Under the pieces are notes generated by a model that made no database searches, had not been told where the DNA came from, and worked only from the letters and a program-made list of their open reading frames with translations. From a virus, in the IMG/VR virus record IMGVR_UViG_3300027759_000252, positions 1-34,070 of that record: a DNA stretch of 34,070 nt. One strand, given 5' to 3'. This document shows positions 5,986 to 34,070 of the stretch, piece after piece. A program made the position numbers and the translations under genes. Every line of letters starts with the position of its first letter. Positions within the stretch are counted from its first letter, which is position 1.

Positions 5986-6843
5986 TTAGCCGAGTTTCCG
6001 ACGCTTTACTTTGTCAACATCAGCAGTAGCTGAAGCACCAACAGATGCTAGATCTGCTAGTGAACCACCAAAGATGAACGTACCAACATGCTGTAGTTGC
6101 ATCCATGGGCAGAGCCAAACCTTCAGACCCATCTTCTGTACATTGTAGCAGAACATATAATCTTCAGAAAGATAACGCTTGGAGACTGGATCAATGATAC
6201 AATCGAAGTAAGCCATAATCTCACGCGAACCATCAAAATGCTCAGTACGAACATGATCCGGACGATAAGATAGATGAGGAAATTCTGTATCGTACTTAGC
6301 AAACACAGAACGACGAATCATCATGAAGCCTGTACCACCTTCAAGCACTTCGGCTGGTTCGCCGAGTGGGATTGACTTTGTGGAAGCCTTTGGATTGAAA
6401 ACGAAGTCACCAACGAAACGATCGAGAATATTTGGATCTTCGTCGGCGATACCCTTATCAACTGCCATCTTGATCTTTTCCCAAGAGATACACTTCTTTG
6501 GATATGGGCCACAGAGAACGTCATAGTCACTGTCTTCAGACTGCATAGCCATCAGAGCGATAACGTCATTAGGATTAAAACCGATGTCTGAGTCGATAAA
6601 CATCAGATGGTCGGCTCCAGAACGAAGGAACTCGTCGACACAGTAGTTACGAGCACGTGTAATCAGCGATTCATTAAACAGAAAATACATCTGTAGTTGA
6701 ATGCCATGGTGGACGCAAAGAGCAGAAAGGTCAGCAACAGAACGAGCAAACATACCTGCACATTGTCCACCATACATTGGTGTCGCTAAAAATAACTTAC
6801 GCTTACGTAGTTCTTCAATAGGTACTTTAATTTCAAAAGCCAT
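5986..6843 (-). CDS. putative GT-A glycosyltransferase
   Basis: A 285-residue protein starting MAFEIKVPIEELRKRKLFLA. I choose the ATG at 6843 because a perfect AAGGAG lies just upstream; the frame stays open for 13 more codons, but these overlap the previous gene. A nucleotide-sugar binding core is visible: RNYCVDEFLRSGADHLMFID followed by DSD at 85-87, the metal-binding D-x-D of GT-A enzymes. Later GGTGFMMIRRSVF and a C-terminal His-rich LQHVGTFIFGG resemble glycosyltransferase acceptor regions. The target (DNA base, lipid or protein) is not shown. A promoter inside the upstream gene can drive it, and gp45 follows 18 bases later. Confidence 0.75.
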   Translation of the reverse strand: MAFEIKVPIEELRKRKLFLATPMYGGQCAGMFARSVADLSALCVHHGIQLQMYFLFNESLITRARNYCVDEFLRSGADHLMFIDSDIGFNPNDVIALMAMQSEDSDYDVLCGPYPKKCISWEKIKMAVDKGIADEDPNILDRFVGDFVFNPKASTKSIPLGEPAEVLEGGTGFMMIRRSVFAKYDTEFPHLSYRPDHVRTEHFDGSREIMAYFDCIIDPVSKRYLSEDYMFCYNVQKMGLKVWLCPWMQLQHVGTFIFGGSLADLASVGASATADVDKVKRRKLG

Positions 6844-6844
6844 A

Positions 6845-7147
6845 TTAACTCCTTGGTTGTTGATCCAACTGTTCATCATCATGAACGTATAGTTGTATTA
6901 TACTATAATGTATGATTTTTAACAAGTCTTTTTTATTGAATCCTTGCTTTTTTCCATACCGCTTGGCATACTTCATAATATTGCCAATGTTAAAACCTGT
7001 ACCATGCCCAGCATCAATGATCATGTCGGTTGCTTGATACTTACCTGAATAGTGCTGGGTGTAAGTAGCATCAACATACTTCTTAATCTGTTCTAGGTAT
7101 AGATCCTCATTGAATTTATAACAGATTTGTTCGTTTTCACCGCTCAT
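6845..7147 (-). CDS. DUF3310-like protein
   Basis: A 100-residue protein whose central part (YTQHYSGKYQATDMIIDAGH, then FNIGNIMKYAKRYGKKQG) matches the pattern of DUF3310 proteins: an HY near the start, a G-N-x-x-K-Y core and a basic R-x-GKK turn. The biochemical role of the family is not settled. Its start overlaps the peptide deformylase stop as ATGA, and its stop leaves 1 base before the next ATG. The coding end carries a promoter for the next gene. Confidence 0.75.
   Translation of the reverse strand: MSGENEQICYKFNEDLYLEQIKKYVDATYTQHYSGKYQATDMIIDAGHGTGFNIGNIMKYAKRYGKKQGFNKKDLLKIIHYSIIQLYVHDDEQLDQQPRS
6897..6925 (-). promoter_or_regulatory. sigma70-like promoter inside the DUF3310 gene
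   Basis: TTGTTA (6925-6920) and TATAAT (6902-6897) on the minus strand with a 17-base spacer, placed in the C-terminal coding part of the DUF3310 gene and about 55 bases before the glycosyltransferase start. It would add expression of glycosyltransferase and gp45. Confidence 0.65.
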
Positions 7148-7659
7148 GCTGAAATTTTTTCCTTCTTTCGTCTAGAAATTGTTTTCATCTTCCTTCTAGC
7201 CTGGTCTAAATGAAACAGAGAGGCTCGGTTTGAGTGTACAACTCCATTCAGATGATCGAGTTCATGCTGAAATACACGAGCTGTAAGACCCTCAAAGGTT
7301 TCGTTCTTAACTTCTCCGTTTGGCAGGTTAAAACGAACCCGAATAGACGCTGGTCTTTTGATCTTAATGAAAAGATTTGGGTATGAAAGGCATCCTTCTT
7401 CCATCAAAACTTCTTCAGAAGAGCGATCAATAATCCTTGGATTAAAGCAAGCGTAAATTGGAGTACCTGTAATAACAAAAACACGGTAAGGAAGATTAAC
7501 CTGGTTAGCGGAAAGACCAAGACCATTGTTTGCAATCATTGTTTCAGCAAGATCCCTAGACAACTGATTAGGATCTGTTGGTGGGTTCAGAAAATCAAAA
7601 GGCTGGATAGTTGTCTTAAGAATTTCCGAATATGGAGCAACTAATGTTTGAATTGCCAT
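7144..7659 (-). CDS. def: peptide deformylase
   Basis: A 171-residue enzyme with all three deformylase motifs: GLGLSANQ at 46-53 (usual GxGLAAxQ), EGCLS at 88-92 with metal ligand Cys90, and HELDH at 132-136 with metal ligands His132 and His136 and catalytic Glu133. It removes the formyl group from new proteins. Deformylases are a known auxiliary gene of marine T4-like phages, usually short like this one and lacking a long C-terminal extension. Here the tail is basic (RRKMKTISRRKKEKISA). Its ATG shares a base with the MazG stop. Confidence 0.95.
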   Translation of the reverse strand: MAIQTLVAPYSEILKTTIQPFDFLNPPTDPNQLSRDLAETMIANNGLGLSANQVNLPYRVFVITGTPIYACFNPRIIDRSSEEVLMEEGCLSYPNLFIKIKRPASIRVRFNLPNGEVKNETFEGLTARVFQHELDHLNGVVHSNRASLFHLDQARRKMKTISRRKKEKISA

Positions 7660-27456: not shown

Positions 27457-28187
27457 TAATAAGCTCCTTCCGAGAACGGATCAGTTTCGGAAAAATCAAC
27501 AAAGGTGTCTGCTTCTACTTGAATCTCATCATTGTCAGCAAAGAAATCTCCAGCCTGTGTATCAATATCAAACTGACCTTGGATAATTGGGAATCCGTCA
27601 GTATCAGTAATAATGAATCCATCTTCAGTTTTCAATGCATAATTAACTAGATCAATTGAGCGATTTCTTTCAAGAATATCAATCTCATAAATGCCAGTGT
27701 TCATACGTTCTCCAGAATACTCGAAGAGTTCGCATTGAACATCATACATTTGCAGAGCGCCCATCTGATAGAATACAGGTTCATGCTCTACGAATTTAAC
27801 TTGGAAGATCTTTTTATTGAGTGGAAAGTAAATTAAATCGCCTTCCTGTGGTCTGACGATTGCTGGTTCATATTTGCTAACTTCACCAGTAAATGTTCTT
27901 CTGGCTACTGTAAATGTAATTTGATCTCGGATCTGTAGATTAAATTTAGAAAGGAAGTCGCCTTCTCCAGCAAAACCTTCGACATTCTTGATATACATTT
28001 CAAGGAAGTACTGAGTGTTAAACTCAGCTAGAGGTGCCTCGCCTAGGATCTTATCTAAGTCTGTCAAAACTCTAGGGATATAATAAACATCATGACCGTA
28101 TATGCGAATTGATTCAATAACAAGGTCTTCGATTAGACCTTGCTCTCCACTGTTTTGGAAGTTATTGAAATATACGGAAGTTGCCAT
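27456..28187 (-). CDS. 14: neck protein gp14
   Basis: A 243-residue protein (T4 gp14: 256) starting MATSVYFNNFQNSGEQGLIE, with ESIRIYGHDVYYIPR, a family signature. gp13 and gp14 complete the filled head so that the tail can attach. The C-terminus is acidic (ADNDEIQVEADTFVDFSETD). The ATG shares a base with the gp13 stop. Confidence 0.95.
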   Translation of the reverse strand: MATSVYFNNFQNSGEQGLIEDLVIESIRIYGHDVYYIPRVLTDLDKILGEAPLAEFNTQYFLEMYIKNVEGFAGEGDFLSKFNLQIRDQITFTVARRTFTGEVSKYEPAIVRPQEGDLIYFPLNKKIFQVKFVEHEPVFYQMGALQMYDVQCELFEYSGERMNTGIYEIDILERNRSIDLVNYALKTEDGFIITDTDGFPIIQGQFDIDTQAGDFFADNDEIQVEADTFVDFSETDPFSEGAY

Positions 28188-28930
28188 TAGCCAATCATAT
28201 CCATAACTGGAAGTGAATACCCAGAAATCATTTCTTCTTCCATTCTCTGAATTTCAGCATCAGCGTCATCATAGATTTTTTCACCGTTAAAGGTTACTCC
28301 ACCAGGAAGTTGAAGACCGCTGAACTTGGTAAGATTTGATCCCCATTGTTTCTTGATCAGGGCTGTTGCATACTTGGCTAGCCAACGGTCACCCCATGCA
28401 TCAGTAAAGGTATCTGGATCAACTACTTCGTAGGCTTGAACTAGAAGATAGTTGCCAGTTACAACCTTGTTCCAATCAATGTCAACATATAGTCTATCTT
28501 TGTGTCTTGAATATCTGATAAGTGGCATACCGACAAGCATCTCAGAAATAATACCAAGATGAGTCATAGCAAGATAATAAGGTACCATTGATACTGATGT
28601 CAATGTGTAAAGATCGTTCAAAGCAATTTGATAGCGAATATTAAACAGATCTTGCGAGTTGATTGTTGGGTCGCCGATAGGAAATACCGACACAGCACCA
28701 ATAATATTTTCTGGTAATGTGATGTATTTGTCGATTACATTTTGATCTGTAATTTGATGTTTGTAGTAAGTCATCTCGGCACCATCGAAGTGATAGTCCC
28801 AGTAAAACTTAAGAGCTTCGTCGATACGATCTTCAGTTTGATCGTCGTCTACGTTAATTTCGATGACAGGTTTACCTAGTTTACGTAGGCAATATTCTTT
28901 GAACTCTGATCTTGAAGTGGGTACTGCCAT
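28187..28930 (-). CDS. 13: neck protein gp13
   Basis: A 247-residue protein (T4 gp13: 309; shorter forms are usual in marine relatives). It begins MAVPTSRSEFKEYCLRKLGK and contains DEALKFYWDYHFDGAEMTYY and a conserved W-G-x-x-L region (KKQWGSNLTKFSGLQLPGG). It fits the head-completion connector family that binds under the portal. It is the first gene of the gp13-17 operon, with a perfect late promoter 33 bases upstream. Confidence 0.94.
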   Translation of the reverse strand: MAVPTSRSEFKEYCLRKLGKPVIEINVDDDQTEDRIDEALKFYWDYHFDGAEMTYYKHQITDQNVIDKYITLPENIIGAVSVFPIGDPTINSQDLFNIRYQIALNDLYTLTSVSMVPYYLAMTHLGIISEMLVGMPLIRYSRHKDRLYVDIDWNKVVTGNYLLVQAYEVVDPDTFTDAWGDRWLAKYATALIKKQWGSNLTKFSGLQLPGGVTFNGEKIYDDADAEIQRMEEEMISGYSLPVMDMIG

Positions 28931-28962: not shown

Positions 28963-28970
28963 TATTTATA
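28963..28970 (-). promoter_or_regulatory. T4-type late promoter TATAAATA
   Basis: Perfect late element on the minus strand 33 bases before the gp13 ATG. It overlaps the last codons of the upstream cupin-like gene. Confidence 0.83.
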
Positions 28971-29400
28971 AAATTTTTGCTGAGTTGAAAATTTCCTGCT
29001 TTGAGTACCCCTGAGAGAGCCAAAACTTGCTGTCTCTCATTTCTTTACCATTAACCAGAAACTTTGTGTATGATTCAATTTTACCACGAACAAATAAAGT
29101 CACAGCATATTTCTTGATTGGTTTGATTATGTGATACTGATTCATTGTTCTGAAACAAAAGAAACCTGGTTTCCTTGTGTGGGTTGTTACACCAGTTTCT
29201 TCTACTAGAGTTTCATAGTAACCACCCCAAAGAATAAAACTGAAGAAGTTCCATGGATGTGAGTGTAGAATATCAATATCTCCGTAAAGAACATTGATAC
29301 AAATTCTGTTTGTAAACCAAGGCATATACCGAACTATGTGTTCGATTTTGTTTTCTTCGGATGGTAACGTGATGATTTCTTTCCTGATAAGTTTCATCAC
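28966..29400 (-). CDS. cupin-like protein (HxHPW type)
   Basis: A 144-residue protein with a cupin-like pattern: ICINVLYGDIDILHSHPWNF, where His-Ser-His would be metal ligands, then FILWGGYYETLVEE, RKPGFFCFR and QYHIIKP with a further His. Bacteria and phages have small proteins with the order HxHPW, GGYxE, RxxG, R and H; no reaction is settled for them. A metal-dependent small-molecule enzyme or binding protein is plausible. The start overlaps the upstream gene by 4 bases. Confidence 0.7.
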   Translation of the reverse strand: MMKLIRKEIITLPSEENKIEHIVRYMPWFTNRICINVLYGDIDILHSHPWNFFSFILWGGYYETLVEETGVTTHTRKPGFFCFRTMNQYHIIKPIKKYAVTLFVRGKIESYTKFLVNGKEMRDSKFWLSQGYSKQEIFNSAKIL

Positions 29401-29726
29401 AGCTCCATTTCTATCTCTAACTTGAAGAAATTTTTGTGTAGTTTATCTGTTGACAATAATTCAGTACCAACTCTATATTCAACAAGGTCTCCAAAGAACA
29501 ACTTGTCTGCTTGTAATCTAGCAAATTTAACACTTTCATTATCAGGCACAAGTACAAGAACTTTTTGTCCGTGAAACTTAGCAGCCCCGATCGGACCAAA
29601 TACAACTTTGCCTACCCAGTGAGCATAATACAAAGAAGTATTAAGCGGAACAGGGACACTAGTTTTGAACAGCGTTCTTATTTCTTTCAGGAACTGTGGC
29701 TGCGATTCTAAGTTTGCCGTTGTCAT
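29397..29726 (-). CDS. hypothetical protein
   Basis: A protein of 109 residues from the ATG at 29726 (MTTANLESQPQFLKEIRTLF), chosen because AGGA lies nine bases upstream. An in-frame ATG ten codons earlier (29756) has no ribosome site and would lengthen the overlap with the upstream gene from 68 to 98 bases. Beta and helix segments alternate (GKVVFGPIGAAKFHGQKVLV, then FARLQADKLFFGDLVEYRVG). I do not recognise it. It ends inside the start of the cupin-like gene (4-base overlap). Confidence 0.65.
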   Translation of the reverse strand: MTTANLESQPQFLKEIRTLFKTSVPVPLNTSLYYAHWVGKVVFGPIGAAKFHGQKVLVLVPDNESVKFARLQADKLFFGDLVEYRVGTELLSTDKLHKNFFKLEIEMEL

Positions 29727-29898
29727 TATACATAATCCTAATTTTGTTCCCACCATATCTATTCAGAACATCTGTAGCAAACTCTTTAATCTTATCAAGA
29801 TCTTCCCATTCATAAGAAATATAATTTGTTGGATCTTCATCTAGTTGATGGATGAAGAAATAGCCAACGGTGTTTGGGTTTACCTCTAAAGTTTTCAT
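29659..29898 (-). CDS. hypothetical protein, 79 residues
   Basis: A small acidic protein, MKTLEVNPNTVGYFFIHQLD, followed by YISYEWEDLDKIKEFATDVL and a basic tail (VPERNKNAVQN). The ATG overlaps the desaturase stop (ATGA), so it is coupled to it. No motif was recognised. Its 3' part shares bases with the next gene in another frame, an overlap longer than usual for this genome. Confidence 0.7.
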   Translation of the reverse strand: MKTLEVNPNTVGYFFIHQLDEDPTNYISYEWEDLDKIKEFATDVLNRYGGNKIRIMYNDNGKLRIAATVPERNKNAVQN

Positions 29899-30668
29899 GC
29901 AGAAAGAACCTTACCAAAGAATCTATGAATTGGTCCGTGATCATAGATTTTAATATTGTCATGATGCACTTTGTGCATATTTTCAAGAATACCAATATAC
30001 TCGACCCAACGGATATTAATTGGTTCGTCGAATGGATGTAGAAGAATAGCAAACACCATACCGAAGATTGCGATACCAGTTGGCATTACCCATCCCCAGT
30101 AAAGCCACATTAATGGATTGCCAAGCAATAGACCTACGGCAAGAATAGTTGCTGGCCAGACAAGAATCCACCAGTGTAAGTCTCTTAAAAATGATACTTG
30201 CCATTTGTCTCTAAGGAGATGTTTAGCTGACAGAAATGAAAGTCTAAGATCATCACCCTTTGGTGCAGGATGATTTGCGTAAATTATTGCATTCCAAAAT
30301 CCTCTATGGATTGGAGAAGATGGATCTTTAACAGTATCAGTATATTTGTGATGCATATAATGAACAAGCGTAAATCCTAGCGGACTTGTTAAGGCTGTTG
30401 AAGTATAAAAGAATCCAACAAATCTTTGAACCCATGGTCTCATTGTTAGTGCTTTATGGCAAAGACCAAAGTGCATACCAATAACATTAATTCCGGAAAT
30501 AACAAAAGCCCAAGCAAACCAAGCAACAATCCAATGCATCCATGAATTTTCATAAAGAAATGGACCAGCAAACATCAATGGCATAAGTATAAACATACCA
30601 GCTGTTTGCAAAAATTTGGTGTAGTTTCCTACCTTTTCAGGGATAGTTGATGCTTCGGATTTTGCCAT
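29895..30668 (-). CDS. membrane fatty acid desaturase
   Basis: A 257-residue integral membrane protein. The three histidine boxes of acyl desaturases are present: H66-x4-H71 (HFGLCH), H103xxHH107 (HYMHH) and H232xxHH236 (HKVHH). Hydrophobic segments lie near 23-40, 44-64, 84-102 and 166-208, giving the usual two-hairpin layout, with the His boxes on the cytoplasmic side. It would use a di-iron centre and O2 to put a double bond in an acyl chain, so it would alter host lipids. It starts at 30668 with GGGAG 7 bases upstream. It is shorter than most bacterial acyl-CoA desaturases but has all the ligand boxes I can check. Desaturases occur in some marine myoviruses. Confidence 0.93.
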   Translation of the reverse strand: MAKSEASTIPEKVGNYTKFLQTAGMFILMPLMFAGPFLYENSWMHWIVAWFAWAFVISGINVIGMHFGLCHKALTMRPWVQRFVGFFYTSTALTSPLGFTLVHYMHHKYTDTVKDPSSPIHRGFWNAIIYANHPAPKGDDLRLSFLSAKHLLRDKWQVSFLRDLHWWILVWPATILAVGLLLGNPLMWLYWGWVMPTGIAIFGMVFAILLHPFDEPINIRWVEYIGILENMHKVHHDNIKIYDHGPIHRFFGKVLSA

Positions 30669-30671
30669 AAT

Positions 30672-31238
30672 TTACTCCCAAATTTTAATTAAGTAAGAAT
30701 CTTCTAAAGCTGTTAAATTTACAACTTCATTTGCGCTAAATTTAATAAGAGAAAAAGTTTGTCTATCTGTTGTGTTAATATTAATCTTACCTGTAGCAAC
30801 AAAGTAAAAAGTTTCTTGATTGTTAGTTTCTGAGATTGTATCTCCGGAATTTAAAGACATAATAGATCTTTGATATATCATACTCTTTTTAGGAATTAGG
30901 CAAAACCAGGATGTGTTATCTTCAATAGCAGTTAATTTATAAATCGTTTTACTTCTGGTCATGCTTGTGCCCTGACCTTTAGTAAAGATAAAATCTGGGT
31001 GTTTCTTGTTCTGAATTAGAACACTTCCGTTGGTTACCATAAAAATGTTAGGTTGATATCTAAACCATTCTCTCGCTTCTGGATCTGTTGTATGTGCGTA
31101 TACTGGTACCCAAGAAGGAGCTGGACCATCATACCAAGAAGTTTTATTACTTAGAGTGCTAGCATATCTAATTGTGAAATGTGGAGTTTCAATAATTTGA
31201 AAATCTGCTAACAAACCTACACTGTCAGAACTTGCCAT
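30672..31238 (-). CDS. tandem cupin-like protein with internal repeat
   Basis: A 188-residue beta-rich protein. The first half ends in YKLTAIEDNTSWFCLIPKK and the second half in NLTALEDSYLIKIWE, each preceded by a G-containing turn (FMVTNGSVLI, and FYFVATGKIN). This is the pattern of two successive cupin domains from an internal duplication. No clear HxH metal ligands are visible, so it may bind a ligand without catalysis. It sits between the radical SAM gene and the desaturase, and its stop forms part of the desaturase ribosome site. It has a late promoter 45 bases upstream. Confidence 0.65.
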   Translation of the reverse strand: MASSDSVGLLADFQIIETPHFTIRYASTLSNKTSWYDGPAPSWVPVYAHTTDPEAREWFRYQPNIFMVTNGSVLIQNKKHPDFIFTKGQGTSMTRSKTIYKLTAIEDNTSWFCLIPKKSMIYQRSIMSLNSGDTISETNNQETFYFVATGKININTTDRQTFSLIKFSANEVVNLTALEDSYLIKIWE

Positions 31239-31247
31239 TTTATTTTC

Positions 31248-32777
31248 CTAGATTAATTTTTGTAGATAACCTTCTACAGTCTTATTTATACCGTTTTCCA
31301 TAAAAGAAAAAACATCACCGTCGATATCTGACATCTTCATTGAGCCATCATATTTATTGATATCAAACCCAGTATTCATAATATTTGGTATCATAAAAGA
31401 ATGTATATTTTTATTCTTGAAGTTATCAATAGCAAACTTACTGGCAAGTTCGATAGATTTACTATAATTCATATGTTCGTTTTTCCAAAACATTTGTCCT
31501 GTCCAAACGCTGGTAAGCCCACCGTTTTTTGCTTGAATAAGTTTTGTTTTATATCCATATGATTCTGGGTCAATATCGATAGGACTAAGTTTTCTTTCTG
31601 ATATTTTTTCTTTGTTTACAATAGACAAAGGTTGCCAGAAAGACCCATCAATATAGTTTTCTTTCATAATATGTTCATGTGATTGTTCGACGCTTTCCAC
31701 AGTTTCGTGCGGCAAACCAATAATCATATTGATTCCATTATACACTTTATTGTTACTTCGTTTTTTCATTTCTTTCATTACGTCAAGAATTTTATTAATA
31801 TCGCCCATCTTCTTTACAGACATGCGAGTTTTGTAATTGAAAGATTCAACACCATAATTAGCAGATACTATTCCACTGCCTATTAGTAGATCAATTTGTT
31901 CTGGAAAAATAGCGAGCAAATCTGGTTTGACGTATGATGTAAAGTTTATTTTAAATGGCAATCGTTGTGTCATATTATAAAATCGTTCAAGTTTTGTTGT
32001 TGAATCATTAAAAGTGTCATCAGCAAAAACGTAGTTCTTTACTCCAAACAGCTCATAATTTCTACGTAACTCACATTCAAGATTATCTTCTTCTCTGAGA
32101 TAATCTAGTTTCTTTTTACCTTTCAATGGAAAATTGCAAAATGCACATTTAAAAATACAACCACGCGAAGCCTCAATGGGTAATGCTTCGTAAGGCTGAA
32201 CTGCATCTTCTGGTAACCATACATTATTAATCTCAATAGAAGAAAAGGGATAATCTACGTTACCATCAATTGTATTTTCTTTTTTAATAATAAGACTATT
32301 TGTTTTACCTTCAAGATAATCTAGATAATTTAGAAGAGCTAGCTCGGCGTAACCTGAAATACAAAAATCTACATATTTTGTATTCATGTCATAAGATGCA
32401 TGTTGACCACCAACAATAATTTTAAGATTTGGAAATTTATTTTTAAGTTCAAGAAATACTTCTGTGTATTTGTCCCAAAACATAGGATTAAGAAACAAAG
32501 TTGATAAACCTATAAATTTTGTTTTTGATGAAACAATGTTATTAAGAACACTTTTCATTGTAATTTCGTCATAAAAATCACAAAAATCAACCGCTCTAAT
32601 ATTATATCCAAAATTTGAAAGATGTGTTCTTAATCTTACAGGTCCAAGATTTCTGAAGAAACTTACAACAGTATCAAGTTTTGTAAATTGAATTAAGTCT
32701 TCGTTTAAAAATGATTTTTCAGTTGCACTAAATCCTGGTCTTGGTGCTCCGGTTAAAATTATACCATCATAAAACAT
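31248..32777 (-). CDS. B12-type radical SAM enzyme (putative)
   Basis: A 509-residue protein. Residues 1 to about 160 resemble a cobalamin-binding Rossmann domain (FIGLSTLFLN, LKIIVGGQHASYD, FCISGYAELAL); the usual D-x-H-x-x-G is absent, so B12 may not bind or may bind base-on. Then the radical SAM core: C207-x3-C211-x2-C214 (RGCIFKCAFC) for the 4Fe-4S cluster, YVFADDTFND in the barrel, VSANYGVESFN and YNGINMIIGLPHET, all typical of the class. The last 130 residues have no match I know. AAGGA is 7 bases before the ATG. The substrate is unknown. Carrying such an enzyme is unusual for a T4-like phage. No maturation partner was seen. Confidence 0.88.
   Translation of the reverse strand: MFYDGIILTGAPRPGFSATEKSFLNEDLIQFTKLDTVVSFFRNLGPVRLRTHLSNFGYNIRAVDFCDFYDEITMKSVLNNIVSSKTKFIGLSTLFLNPMFWDKYTEVFLELKNKFPNLKIIVGGQHASYDMNTKYVDFCISGYAELALLNYLDYLEGKTNSLIIKKENTIDGNVDYPFSSIEINNVWLPEDAVQPYEALPIEASRGCIFKCAFCNFPLKGKKKLDYLREEDNLECELRRNYELFGVKNYVFADDTFNDSTTKLERFYNMTQRLPFKINFTSYVKPDLLAIFPEQIDLLIGSGIVSANYGVESFNYKTRMSVKKMGDINKILDVMKEMKKRSNNKVYNGINMIIGLPHETVESVEQSHEHIMKENYIDGSFWQPLSIVNKEKISERKLSPIDIDPESYGYKTKLIQAKNGGLTSVWTGQMFWKNEHMNYSKSIELASKFAIDNFKNKNIHSFMIPNIMNTGFDINKYDGSMKMSDIDGDVFSFMENGINKTVEGYLQKLI
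31283..31290 (-). promoter_or_regulatory. T4-type late promoter TATAAATA
   Basis: Perfect late element on the minus strand, located in the last codons of the radical SAM gene and 45 bases before the tandem cupin-like gene. It would transcribe the cupin, desaturase and downstream small genes late. Confidence 0.75.
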
Positions 32778-32793
32778 ACTTTATCCTTATAAA

Positions 32794-33048
32794 TTATATT
32801 CCGTTTTCAAAATCATCTTCAAGGTTACCAGACATAGTTAGTTCTTCTGCAAAAGGACAATGCAGATTTACATGATAATCTAAATTTGCAGGAACAATGA
32901 CTGGAGCTGGTATACAGATTACTACTTTATTTGCAGTGTTGCTCAAAAGAGTATATTCAACATTTATTGTATTGTTGAAAGGGTCTCCGCTTTTTATAAT
33001 GTACGAATATTCTTGCATCAAAGCCTCGTTAAAATTGGGATAATTCAT
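32794..33048 (-). CDS. hypothetical protein, 84 residues
   Basis: A small protein MNYPNFNEALMQEYSYIIKS, with NTINVEYTLLSNTANKVV, a Pro-rich IPAPVIVPANLD and an acidic end. Mostly beta strands are expected. It overlaps the upstream gene by 20 bases. I do not recognise it. Its position next to the radical SAM gene, 16 bases away, suggests the same transcript. Confidence 0.65.
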   Translation of the reverse strand: MNYPNFNEALMQEYSYIIKSGDPFNNTINVEYTLLSNTANKVVICIPAPVIVPANLDYHVNLHCPFAEELTMSGNLEDDFENGI

Positions 33049-33397
33049 CTAAGAATTGATTTTTGATATCTTCCATGTTTTGACTATCGAGACCTTTAGA
33101 TTTGTATATCTGATAATATGTAGATTTTACTTCTAAAATTTTATCCAAAGTCATTATTCCTGATCTACCAATGTAGTTACCAATTTCAACAACATGTGGT
33201 TCTCCATTTAATGCATTTAACTCATTTTTCCAGAAAGTTTGGGGAGCGCAATGATCAATAGATTGTAAAAAATCTTCAGTTTCTGCAGATATATTTTGTG
33301 TAATTTCACTAAGGATAATATTGTCAGGTGTGTACTTAATCAACACTGAGTTTGTTTCAGTATTTGCTGATAAGATTGTAAATGTATACGTTTCCAT
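33029..33397 (-). CDS. hypothetical protein, 122 residues
   Basis: Begins METYTFTILSANTETNSVLI and alternates beta strands, a D/E-rich loop and a C-terminal helical part (GIMTLDKILEVKSTYYQIYK, then MEDIKNQFLDELSQF). A fold of small tail- or fibre-associated proteins is possible from the N-terminal strand pattern, but I have no signature to support it. It directly abuts the stop of the 66-residue gene (TAA then ATG) and overlaps the next gene. Confidence 0.65.
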   Translation of the reverse strand: METYTFTILSANTETNSVLIKYTPDNIILSEITQNISAETEDFLQSIDHCAPQTFWKNELNALNGEPHVVEIGNYIGRSGIMTLDKILEVKSTYYQIYKSKGLDSQNMEDIKNQFLDELSQF

Positions 33398-33595
33398 TTA
33401 ATTCTGTCCATTTCCTGGAAGATAGGTTACATTACCACCACTCTCAATATCAATTTTACAATTACCTACTTCTATTCTTCCTCGTAGTATATGATCGTCA
33501 TGTAAACTGAAATGCAAATCTGCAATCCAATTTCTCAGCTCATATGGTAAGTTGTCGTAACATTCCATTACGAGCTGCATTCTGTCTCTATTCAT
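33398..33595 (-). CDS. hypothetical protein, about 65 residues
   Basis: A small protein with a helical N-terminus (RMQLVMECYDNLPYELRNWI) and a beta C-terminal half (RGRIEVGNCKIDIESG). The reading frame is clear but the start is not: ATG at 33595 lies within 5 bases of a late promoter, while a second ATG at 33580 would be downstream of the expected transcription start and has GAGAC ahead. I give the longer form. I do not recognise the family. Confidence 0.65.
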   Translation of the reverse strand: MNRDRMQLVMECYDNLPYELRNWIADLHFSLHDDHILRGRIEVGNCKIDIESGGNVTYLPGNGQN

Positions 33596-33599
33596 CAAC

Positions 33600-33607
33600 T
33601 ATTTATA
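33600..33607 (-). promoter_or_regulatory. T4-type late promoter TATAAATA
   Basis: Perfect late element on the minus strand filling the space between the oxygenase stop and the start of the 65-residue gene. It may lead the transcript down to the radical SAM gene. Confidence 0.7.
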
Positions 33608-34070
33608 TTATTTGAACGGTGGTCCAGCAATCCAAATAACAAGGCTTTTTCTTGTTCCGGCTGTAACAGGAGTTACCTTATGCAGCATATAAGAAGGAAA
33701 AACTGCAATAAACCCTTTTTTCTTTTCGACTGTTGTCGGATTGGCTGAACTCATCAACTGTAATTCGCCACCCTCATATTCATCAGGATCTGATAATTGC
33801 ATTACAAGAGAAAGTTTTCTTGGAGAAGTGCTAGATTTATTTCCCATATCAACATGCCAGTCATAGTGACCTTTTTTGTCACCATAATATGTTGTGTATT
33901 GAAAGTCTTCAATAAATCCTGAGATATCAAAGTTAAAGAACTGACCATTCAATTGTCTGACGATAAAAGCAAACCGATCATATATCCAAGTTGTGTCATT
34001 TTGTAATGGTATCCAACGAGCTTCTGATTCTCTGATATCTGAAAAATCAGAGTCGCCCTCATGACCACCA
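33608..34070 (-). CDS. 2-oxoglutarate/Fe(II) oxygenase, N-terminus cut by window edge
   Basis: The frame is open to the right edge, about 153 residues, with an upstream start outside the window; a TTG at 33952 is only an in-frame codon, not a start. Fe ligands are seen: H-x-D in GHYDWHVDMG, and the distal His in SYMLHKVTPV, followed 10 residues later by the 2-oxoglutarate-binding Arg in GTRKS. GGELQL is the usual turn of prolyl-4-hydroxylase-like (PKHD) enzymes. It would hydroxylate a protein or small molecule using O2 and 2-oxoglutarate. Such genes are frequent in marine T4-like phages, with no known target. Confidence 0.88.
   Translation of the reverse strand, partial: GGHEGDSDFSDIRESEARWIPLQNDTTWIYDRFAFIVRQLNGQFFNFDISGFIEDFQYTTYYGDKKGHYDWHVDMGNKSSTSPRKLSLVMQLSDPDEYEGGELQLMSSANPTTVEKKKGFIAVFPSYMLHKVTPVTAGTRKSLVIWIAGPPFK

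Follow-up and report, generated by a model that had tools for sequence, protein, structure and literature searches.

The window analysed here is a 34,070-base IMG/VR fragment (record IMGVR_UViG_3300027759_000252) of an uncultured T4-like phage. Its minus strand carries neck, sheath-stabilising, terminase and further structural genes, and between the neck gene gp13 and the edge of the window lies an island of accessory genes (28966-34069). Among these are genes for a predicted B12-type radical S-adenosylmethionine (SAM) protein (rSAM), a predicted membrane acyl desaturase, a putative bicupin (cupB), a second cupin-like protein (cupA) and a 2-oxoglutarate (2OG)/Fe(II) oxygenase. Desaturases were found to be linked to the essentially viral radical SAM subfamily represented by rSAM, and the clustering of the two exceeded both chance and that of two control families. 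The identities of the island components can be regarded as secure with little doubt. As the best single explanation, the island is tentatively considered late, modular cargo directed at acyl or prenyl lipids; we infer the lipid substrate, the use of B12, the role of the bicupin and the action of the enzymes in sequence.

Linkage of desaturases to an essentially viral radical SAM subfamily

Desaturases were searched for in the 50 longest contigs carrying rSAM relatives; the pair carried by the window was excluded from the co-occurrence test. A match was obtained in 18 of the 50 contigs (17 above the cut-off), and after removal of two near-duplicate contigs, 15 of the remaining 48 held 28 desaturases. 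Their positions were compared with a null model of random placement outside the rSAM genes and without overlap. Of the 28 desaturases, 11 lay no more than 5 kb from an rSAM gene (4.0 expected, p 0.0008) and 15 no more than 7 kb (5.5 expected); for clustering at 5-7 kb, p was below 0.001. Two other families in the same contigs, used as internal controls, were unclustered: 2OG oxygenases (4/19 within 5 kb, 3.5 expected) and family-2 glycosyltransferases (GT2; 1/9 within 5 kb, 1.3 expected). As an external control, 50 contigs anchored on the 2OG gene yielded no desaturase above the cut-off (five near-identical hits fell below it) and no rSAM at 1e-20. A desaturase match was present in 4 of 50 gp13-anchored contigs, one of which was the window's own twin. 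Desaturases were about sixfold less dense in the control contigs, at 0.95 per Mb compared with 5.9 per Mb in rSAM contigs (p 4e-5), and among contigs of at least 25 kb, 15/48 versus 5/54 contained a desaturase (p 0.006; the control count is conservative). Because the longest rSAM proteins of the desaturase carriers share no more than 51% identity with one another, the carriers are not copies of one virus. The two genes may simply favour the same hotspots, though the lack of clustering of the 2OG and GT2 controls argues otherwise.

The impression from the gp13-anchored survey that desaturase and rSAM never meet outside the window was rejected, as the wider rSAM survey showed the opposite. A reading of the window made from the sequence alone (the sequence-only reading) had proposed one late, perhaps lipid-directed pathway and had named genes that almost never co-occur as evidence against it; for rSAM and desaturase, the 15 of 48 contigs show that this is not the case.

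The rSAM gene (31248-32777, minus strand) encodes 509 amino acids. The product matched PF04055 (1.1e-16; 61.9 bits, cut-off 29.5) and has the CxxxCxxC motif at C207/C211/C214. The B12-binding domain PF02310 was detected at 1e-5 with 25.8 bits, under the cut-off of 32.1, and is supported by the predicted fold, which bears out the earlier assignment to the B12 type. In structure comparisons, the AlphaFold2 model (predicted local distance difference test score (pLDDT) 84, predicted template modelling score 0.86) aligned with AprD4, OxsB, CysS, MgmA and TsrM at Z scores of 19.4-21 over 366-428 residues, and with TokK at Z 16.2. DxHxxG was not seen in the rSAM sequence, which is not decisive for cobalamin binding; some cobalamin-type radical SAM members lack this motif. 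Based on the model, rSAM is a predicted cobalamin-type radical SAM enzyme with an N-terminal B12-binding-type domain and would use B12.

Alignment of 42 relatives revealed an invariant RGCxFKCxxC and a near-invariant DDTFND. A strict pattern search confirmed 209 relatives in IMG/VR, and a looser one gave at least 576. Among 84,980 cellular species, a similarly strict search yielded ten relatives, all with 22-29% identity, the viral/cellular ratio being a guide only as the two strict patterns differed slightly. With the family profile, phage members scored 290-591 bits and cellular hits, all without DDTFND, at most 228 bits. Judged by these comparisons, rSAM is assigned to a large, essentially viral subfamily. 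In L005-L018 and similar loci, phage rSAM genes are paired in tandem with genes for MoaA/HMPTM-type radical SAM, GNAT-like and SGNH-like proteins beside fibre genes.

The desaturase (29895-30668, minus strand; 257 amino acids) matched PF00487 at 9e-9 (35.9 bits, above the cut-off of 29.7). It was correctly described in the sequence-only reading as a complete His-box enzyme: the three His boxes and the ninth His of the di-iron site are all present, and the nine residues (His 66, 71, 103, 106, 107, 211, 232, 235 and 236) are invariant in 11 phage desaturases. A profile of the aligned phage desaturases retrieved human and mouse stearoyl-CoA desaturase (SCD) at 4e-32 and 8e-33 (SCD1 4ymk, 7.8e-33). 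With regard to the four membrane helices expected of this family, hydropathy peaks were located at residues 19-38, 44-70, 163-191 and 189-217. The protein is only 19-24% identical to the other aligned phage desaturases; no match was found at 1e-5 in 50,697 GenBank phages, and the plasmids searched yielded no relatives. It is a predicted membrane fatty acid desaturase of the SCD/DesC type. A cassette consisting of a divergent desaturase, a protein of 182-184 amino acids, sulfotransferase and 2OG oxygenase, without rSAM, recurs beside the neck gene, upstream of gp13 in L031, L043, L058 and L061, and also in L235. The cultured pelagiphage Mosig EXVC030M (L118, MT647606) carries genes for a desaturase, Asp/Arg hydroxylases, MoaA-like enzymes, an aminotransferase, TauD and a methylase by its tail fibres, and might serve as a model in the laboratory.

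The bicupin and the remaining island genes

The gene cupB (30672-31238, minus strand; 188 amino acids) is rare. Three IMG/VR contigs other than the window and its twin contig L002 also carry it, which makes five distinct copies overall, and the GenBank phages searched contained no relative. Every copy lies directly 5' of a desaturase (window), a Coq4-like gene (L004, L247) or an rSAM gene (L004, L003). Because no His is invariant among the four full-length copies, cupB is without the usual metal site. Pirin YhhW was the best PDB match across both halves of the protein, and the Pirin_C_2 cut-off was exceeded by the L247 copy (23.9 over 22.9), the L004 copies scoring below it (22.7 and 17.4) and the window copy not being listed. 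The predicted structure shows a clear C-terminal cupin barrel and an N-terminal half with pLDDT below 60, and the structure search is trustworthy for the C-terminal half only. A tandem cupin, as previously suggested, is thus well modelled in its C-terminal half and weakly in its N-terminal half; as a model-based assignment, the bicupin is plausible. An adaptor or ligand-presenting role may be envisaged.

Coq4-like genes (PF05019) above the cut-off were detected in T4-like phage contigs at L004:6632-7441, L247:6532-7335, L043:10861-11589 and L063:about 6814-7413. The motif HDxxH-x11-E is present in L004 and L247, the copies read, and the gene of L043 sits between terminase and sheath genes. For Coq4-like genes, GenBank phages gave no match and no paper was found.

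All five genes named in the sequence-only reading were confirmed on the minus strand at the coordinates given; five small open reading frames (orf119, orf79, orf84, orf122 and orf66) had been left out. The close spacing described there also held, with 4-base overlaps at 29397/29400 and 29895/29898 and remaining joints of -20 to +16 bases. The exception is a 98-base overlap between orf119 and orf79, for which a start called too far upstream in orf119 may be responsible. The late-promoter motif TATAAATA had 8 exact minus-strand sites, compared with about 1.1 in sequences simulated by a first-order Markov model (maximum 5, n=300). Only exact sites were considered because the motif with one mismatch was not enriched in the window. 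In agreement with the proposed late expression, the island is served by the sites at 33600-33607, in front of orf66 and orf122, and at 31283-31290, inside the 3' end of rSAM and about 45 bases before cupB (both minus strand). The exact motif at 28963-28970 (minus strand) serves the neck gene gp13 (28187-28930, minus strand), which forms the right-hand border of the island and has a 79% identical counterpart in L003/L004.

The 2OG-Fe(II) oxygenase gene (33608-34069, minus strand; PF13640 4e-17, phrog_61 2e-32) is truncated, as noted earlier: its 5' end lies outside the window, and the C-terminal 153 amino acids remain. The complete gene was found at L002:1758-2375 (205 amino acids), preceded by genes for a DUF6065-like and a Gly-rich protein. 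Among 46 distinct 2OG-anchored loci, a Gly-rich protein gene was present in 28, a DUF6065 gene in 19 and orf66 in 8; the Gly-rich protein gene occurred in 0/34 rSAM loci. The 2OG oxygenase is assigned to this module of Gly-rich-fibre and DUF6065 genes, together with orf66 and orf122. The Gly-rich proteins encoded upstream of DUF6065 and 2OG genes (L002 about 339-1043, L004:2817-4199, L247:2610-4073) resemble polyglycine adhesins, and might be hydroxylated by the 2OG enzyme.

Within this module, orf66 (33398-33598, minus strand) is a small conserved frame, 69% identical in L004, with a likelier start at an ATG one codon downstream of the called one. The conserved orf122 (33029-33397, minus strand) is 35% identical in L004 and also occurs in L247. 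The adjoining orf84 (32794-33048, minus strand) is a possible paralogue; both frames match the same L004 reading frame (5e-4), and the region 32794-33397 may have arisen by duplication. At the other end of the island, orf79 (29659-29898, minus strand) and orf119 (29397-29756, minus strand) had no relatives in the loci compared and, like cupA, were present in none but the window and its twin. The gene cupA (28966-29400, minus strand) encodes an HxHPW cupin-like protein of 144 amino acids, which matched phrog_4786 'cysteine dioxygenase' at residues 38-117 (2e-16), had no Pfam or NCBIfam match above the cut-off, and gave weak, single-cupin PDB matches.

The twin contig L002 (10.7 kb) contains every island gene at 100% identity and reaches past the window edge. 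In L004, the order at the gp13 site is 2OG, orf66, orf122-like, cupB, Coq4-like, cupB, rSAM, gp13; L003 agrees as far as covered, beginning within cupB. L247, reached via its 2OG gene, has the order 2OG, orf122-like, cupB, Coq4-like and oxygenase-like, and no rSAM or desaturase match was found in this contig. The window terminase is 58% identical to that of Methylophilales phage Melnitz and 56% to that of Pelagibacter phage HTVC008M, in which several oxygenases occupy the slot before the neck gene. Variable content between fibre and neck genes was seen in the gene orders of L002, L004, L031, L043, L058 and HTVC008M. The window also encodes two tRNAs, for Trp (cca) and Asn (gtt), at 1124-1334 on the minus strand.

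Explanations for the island

As lipid-directed cargo, the island would be carried at the neck-side end of the hypervariable region between tail-fibre and neck genes and expressed late. The desaturase would introduce a cis double bond into host acyl chains with host ferredoxin and O2, and rSAM would act on an acyl or prenyl-type substrate by radical C-H chemistry (e.g. methyl transfer). The bicupin, having no conserved metal ligands, would bind or present the substrate or dock a neighbouring enzyme, and membrane or lipid-linked surface molecules would be altered late in infection. A lipid-directed module is a tenable guess because rSAM and desaturase genes cluster and because the gene directly 3' of cupB always encodes an rSAM, a desaturase or a Coq4-like protein. 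Also counted for it were same-family rSAM genes of a distinct clade, two in L019:5206-10020 and one in L022:6888-9791, which adjoin genes for a FabA-like dehydratase and an FNR-like reductase by gp13/gp14-like neck genes. That the metal-less bicupin is the shared partner of exchangeable lipid enzymes (desaturase, Coq4-like, rSAM), and that the essentially viral rSAM family and phage desaturases jointly yield modified acyl chains foreign to the host, as a modular system for tailoring lipids, is an unlikely extension. The proposed late lipid-directed pathway was supported in part, by the rSAM-desaturase link and the position of cupB; a single pathway for all island genes was rejected for the 2OG oxygenase, which goes with the Gly-rich fibre/DUF6065 genes and whose 50 anchored contigs contained neither rSAM nor desaturase at the thresholds given above.

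Several observations weigh against a lipid-directed module. Immediate adjacency was not enriched (2/28 desaturases within 1 kb of rSAM, 0.9 expected), and the control contigs used for comparison were shorter on average and unmatched in lineage and may be other virus groups. The rSAM protein scored far under the cut-off of every named lipid radical SAM model (e.g. TIGR04072, 73 bits versus 360); a ladderane-type or PhpK-type enzyme was rejected on such scores. The 148 proteins encoded within 2.5 kb of rSAM in about 40 contigs included 18 radical SAM proteins, 9 Asp/Arg hydroxylases, 6 desaturases and 4 TauD proteins, and apart from the desaturases these common neighbours are not lipid genes. 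The trees of rSAM and desaturase were not congruent (16 pairs; Mantel r 0.14, p 0.17), and the two closest relatives, L003 and L004, lack the desaturase cassette at the corresponding position. Finally, the G+C content of the desaturase block is 0.38 versus 0.30 in the rSAM block (rSAM and orf122 0.29-0.30, cupB 0.32, desaturase 0.38 as in the structural genes).

Because the trees are not congruent, the rSAM-desaturase pairing looks assembled repeatedly, not inherited; a fixed rSAM-desaturase operon was rejected on this ground and on that of L003/L004. Three parts of the island appear to have been acquired separately, namely the 2OG/orf66/orf122 block, rSAM with the bicupin, and the desaturase cassette. 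Different origins and changing neighbours, also named beforehand as speaking against a shared pathway, were found in part, in the trees, in L003/L004 and in the restriction of cupA to this phage and its twin. As to whether radical SAM, tandem cupin and desaturase genes travel together, a check named in the sequence-only reading, rSAM and desaturase do cluster and cupB lies 5' of either gene or of a Coq4-like gene, but not as a fixed unit.

The lipid-directed reading is ranked first, with independent cargo close behind as a possible account. The enzymes would have been dropped singly into a permissive hotspot, each useful alone and with no shared substrate, the desaturase acting on membrane fluidity, a role suggested for other desaturases of phages. 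This agrees with the non-congruent trees, the G+C step between the blocks, the location in a known variable region (PMC2984593, PMC7029224) and the changing neighbours, seen in L003/L004 without desaturase and in L031/L043/L058, where desaturases accompany sulfotransferase and 2OG genes and no rSAM. It fits poorly with a bicupin that keeps beside its enzyme, and with desaturases that, unlike two control families of the same contigs, are enriched and clustered with the rSAM subfamily.

The targets might also be molecules of the virion or of the host surface and not membrane lipids, namely fibre proteins, glycans or a small natural product, with the desaturase acting on a lipid-like building block of the product; this is considered rather improbable. 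The island does lie beside fibre genes, its 2OG gene goes with Gly-rich fibre genes, rSAM neighbours elsewhere comprise many radical SAM proteins, Asp/Arg hydroxylases, TauD, an aminotransferase and methyltransferases, and the Mosig desaturase belongs to a comparably mixed gene cluster adjoining the tail fibres. However, the island revealed no carrier protein, precursor peptide or scaffold synthase, and the 2OG and rSAM modules were not found together elsewhere. An assembly chimera or decayed genes, for which nothing direct speaks although the desaturase is the most divergent of its set, can be practically dismissed, as every frame is open, L002 has the same genes at 100% identity, catalytic residues are intact and late promoter motifs are in place.

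Phage desaturases have so far been explained by membrane fluidity alone. That they are linked repeatedly to a B12-type radical SAM subfamily of mostly viral members suggests that some phages perform more elaborate acyl-chain chemistry late in infection. The subfamily, large in viral contigs and with no assigned function, is a good target for testing.

Comparison with known systems

With OxsB, CysS, TsrM, MgmA, AprD4 and TokK, rSAM has in common the B12-binding-type N-terminal domain, the radical SAM barrel and CxxxCxxC; it differs in its low identity to them (12-16%), its own DDTFND motif and its distant cellular relatives. The pirin-like bicupins (YhhW, Pirin_C_2) have the two-cupin layout that the best full-length matches suggest for cupB, whereas cupB is without the usual metal site and its N-terminal half is poorly modelled.

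Lipid desaturases of cyanophages were reportedly described by Roitman in 2018. The viral fatty acid desaturases from Arctic brine (vFAD, PMC7300359) and from Nitrospirota viruses of Lake Baikal (PMC7678222) are likewise phage-borne and of the SCD type with three His boxes; in the window desaturase the third box reads HKVHH and not HNNHH or HNMHH. Mosig resembles the island in placing FA_desaturase beside Asp/Arg hydroxylase, MoaA-like enzymes and tail fibres, but its radical SAM proteins are of other types and no bicupin is annotated.

The island is located at the margin of what is known in T4-like marine phages as the hypervariable host recognition or hyperplastic region. A variable gene block next to the neck gene has been described in cyanomyophages and pelagimyophages, with rSAM cassettes in marine members and with stearoyl-CoA desaturase, fabF and a 2OG protein in freshwater members (PMC2984593, PMC7029224). 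As in that region, the block of the window is variable, lies among structural genes by the neck gene and accompanies tail fibres and metabolic genes. The freshwater genomes of the report were without rSAM genes, whereas the window combines rSAM and desaturase, and the bicupin is not described there (PMC7029224, PMC2984593). The kind of island is already known, and the combination of its parts is new.

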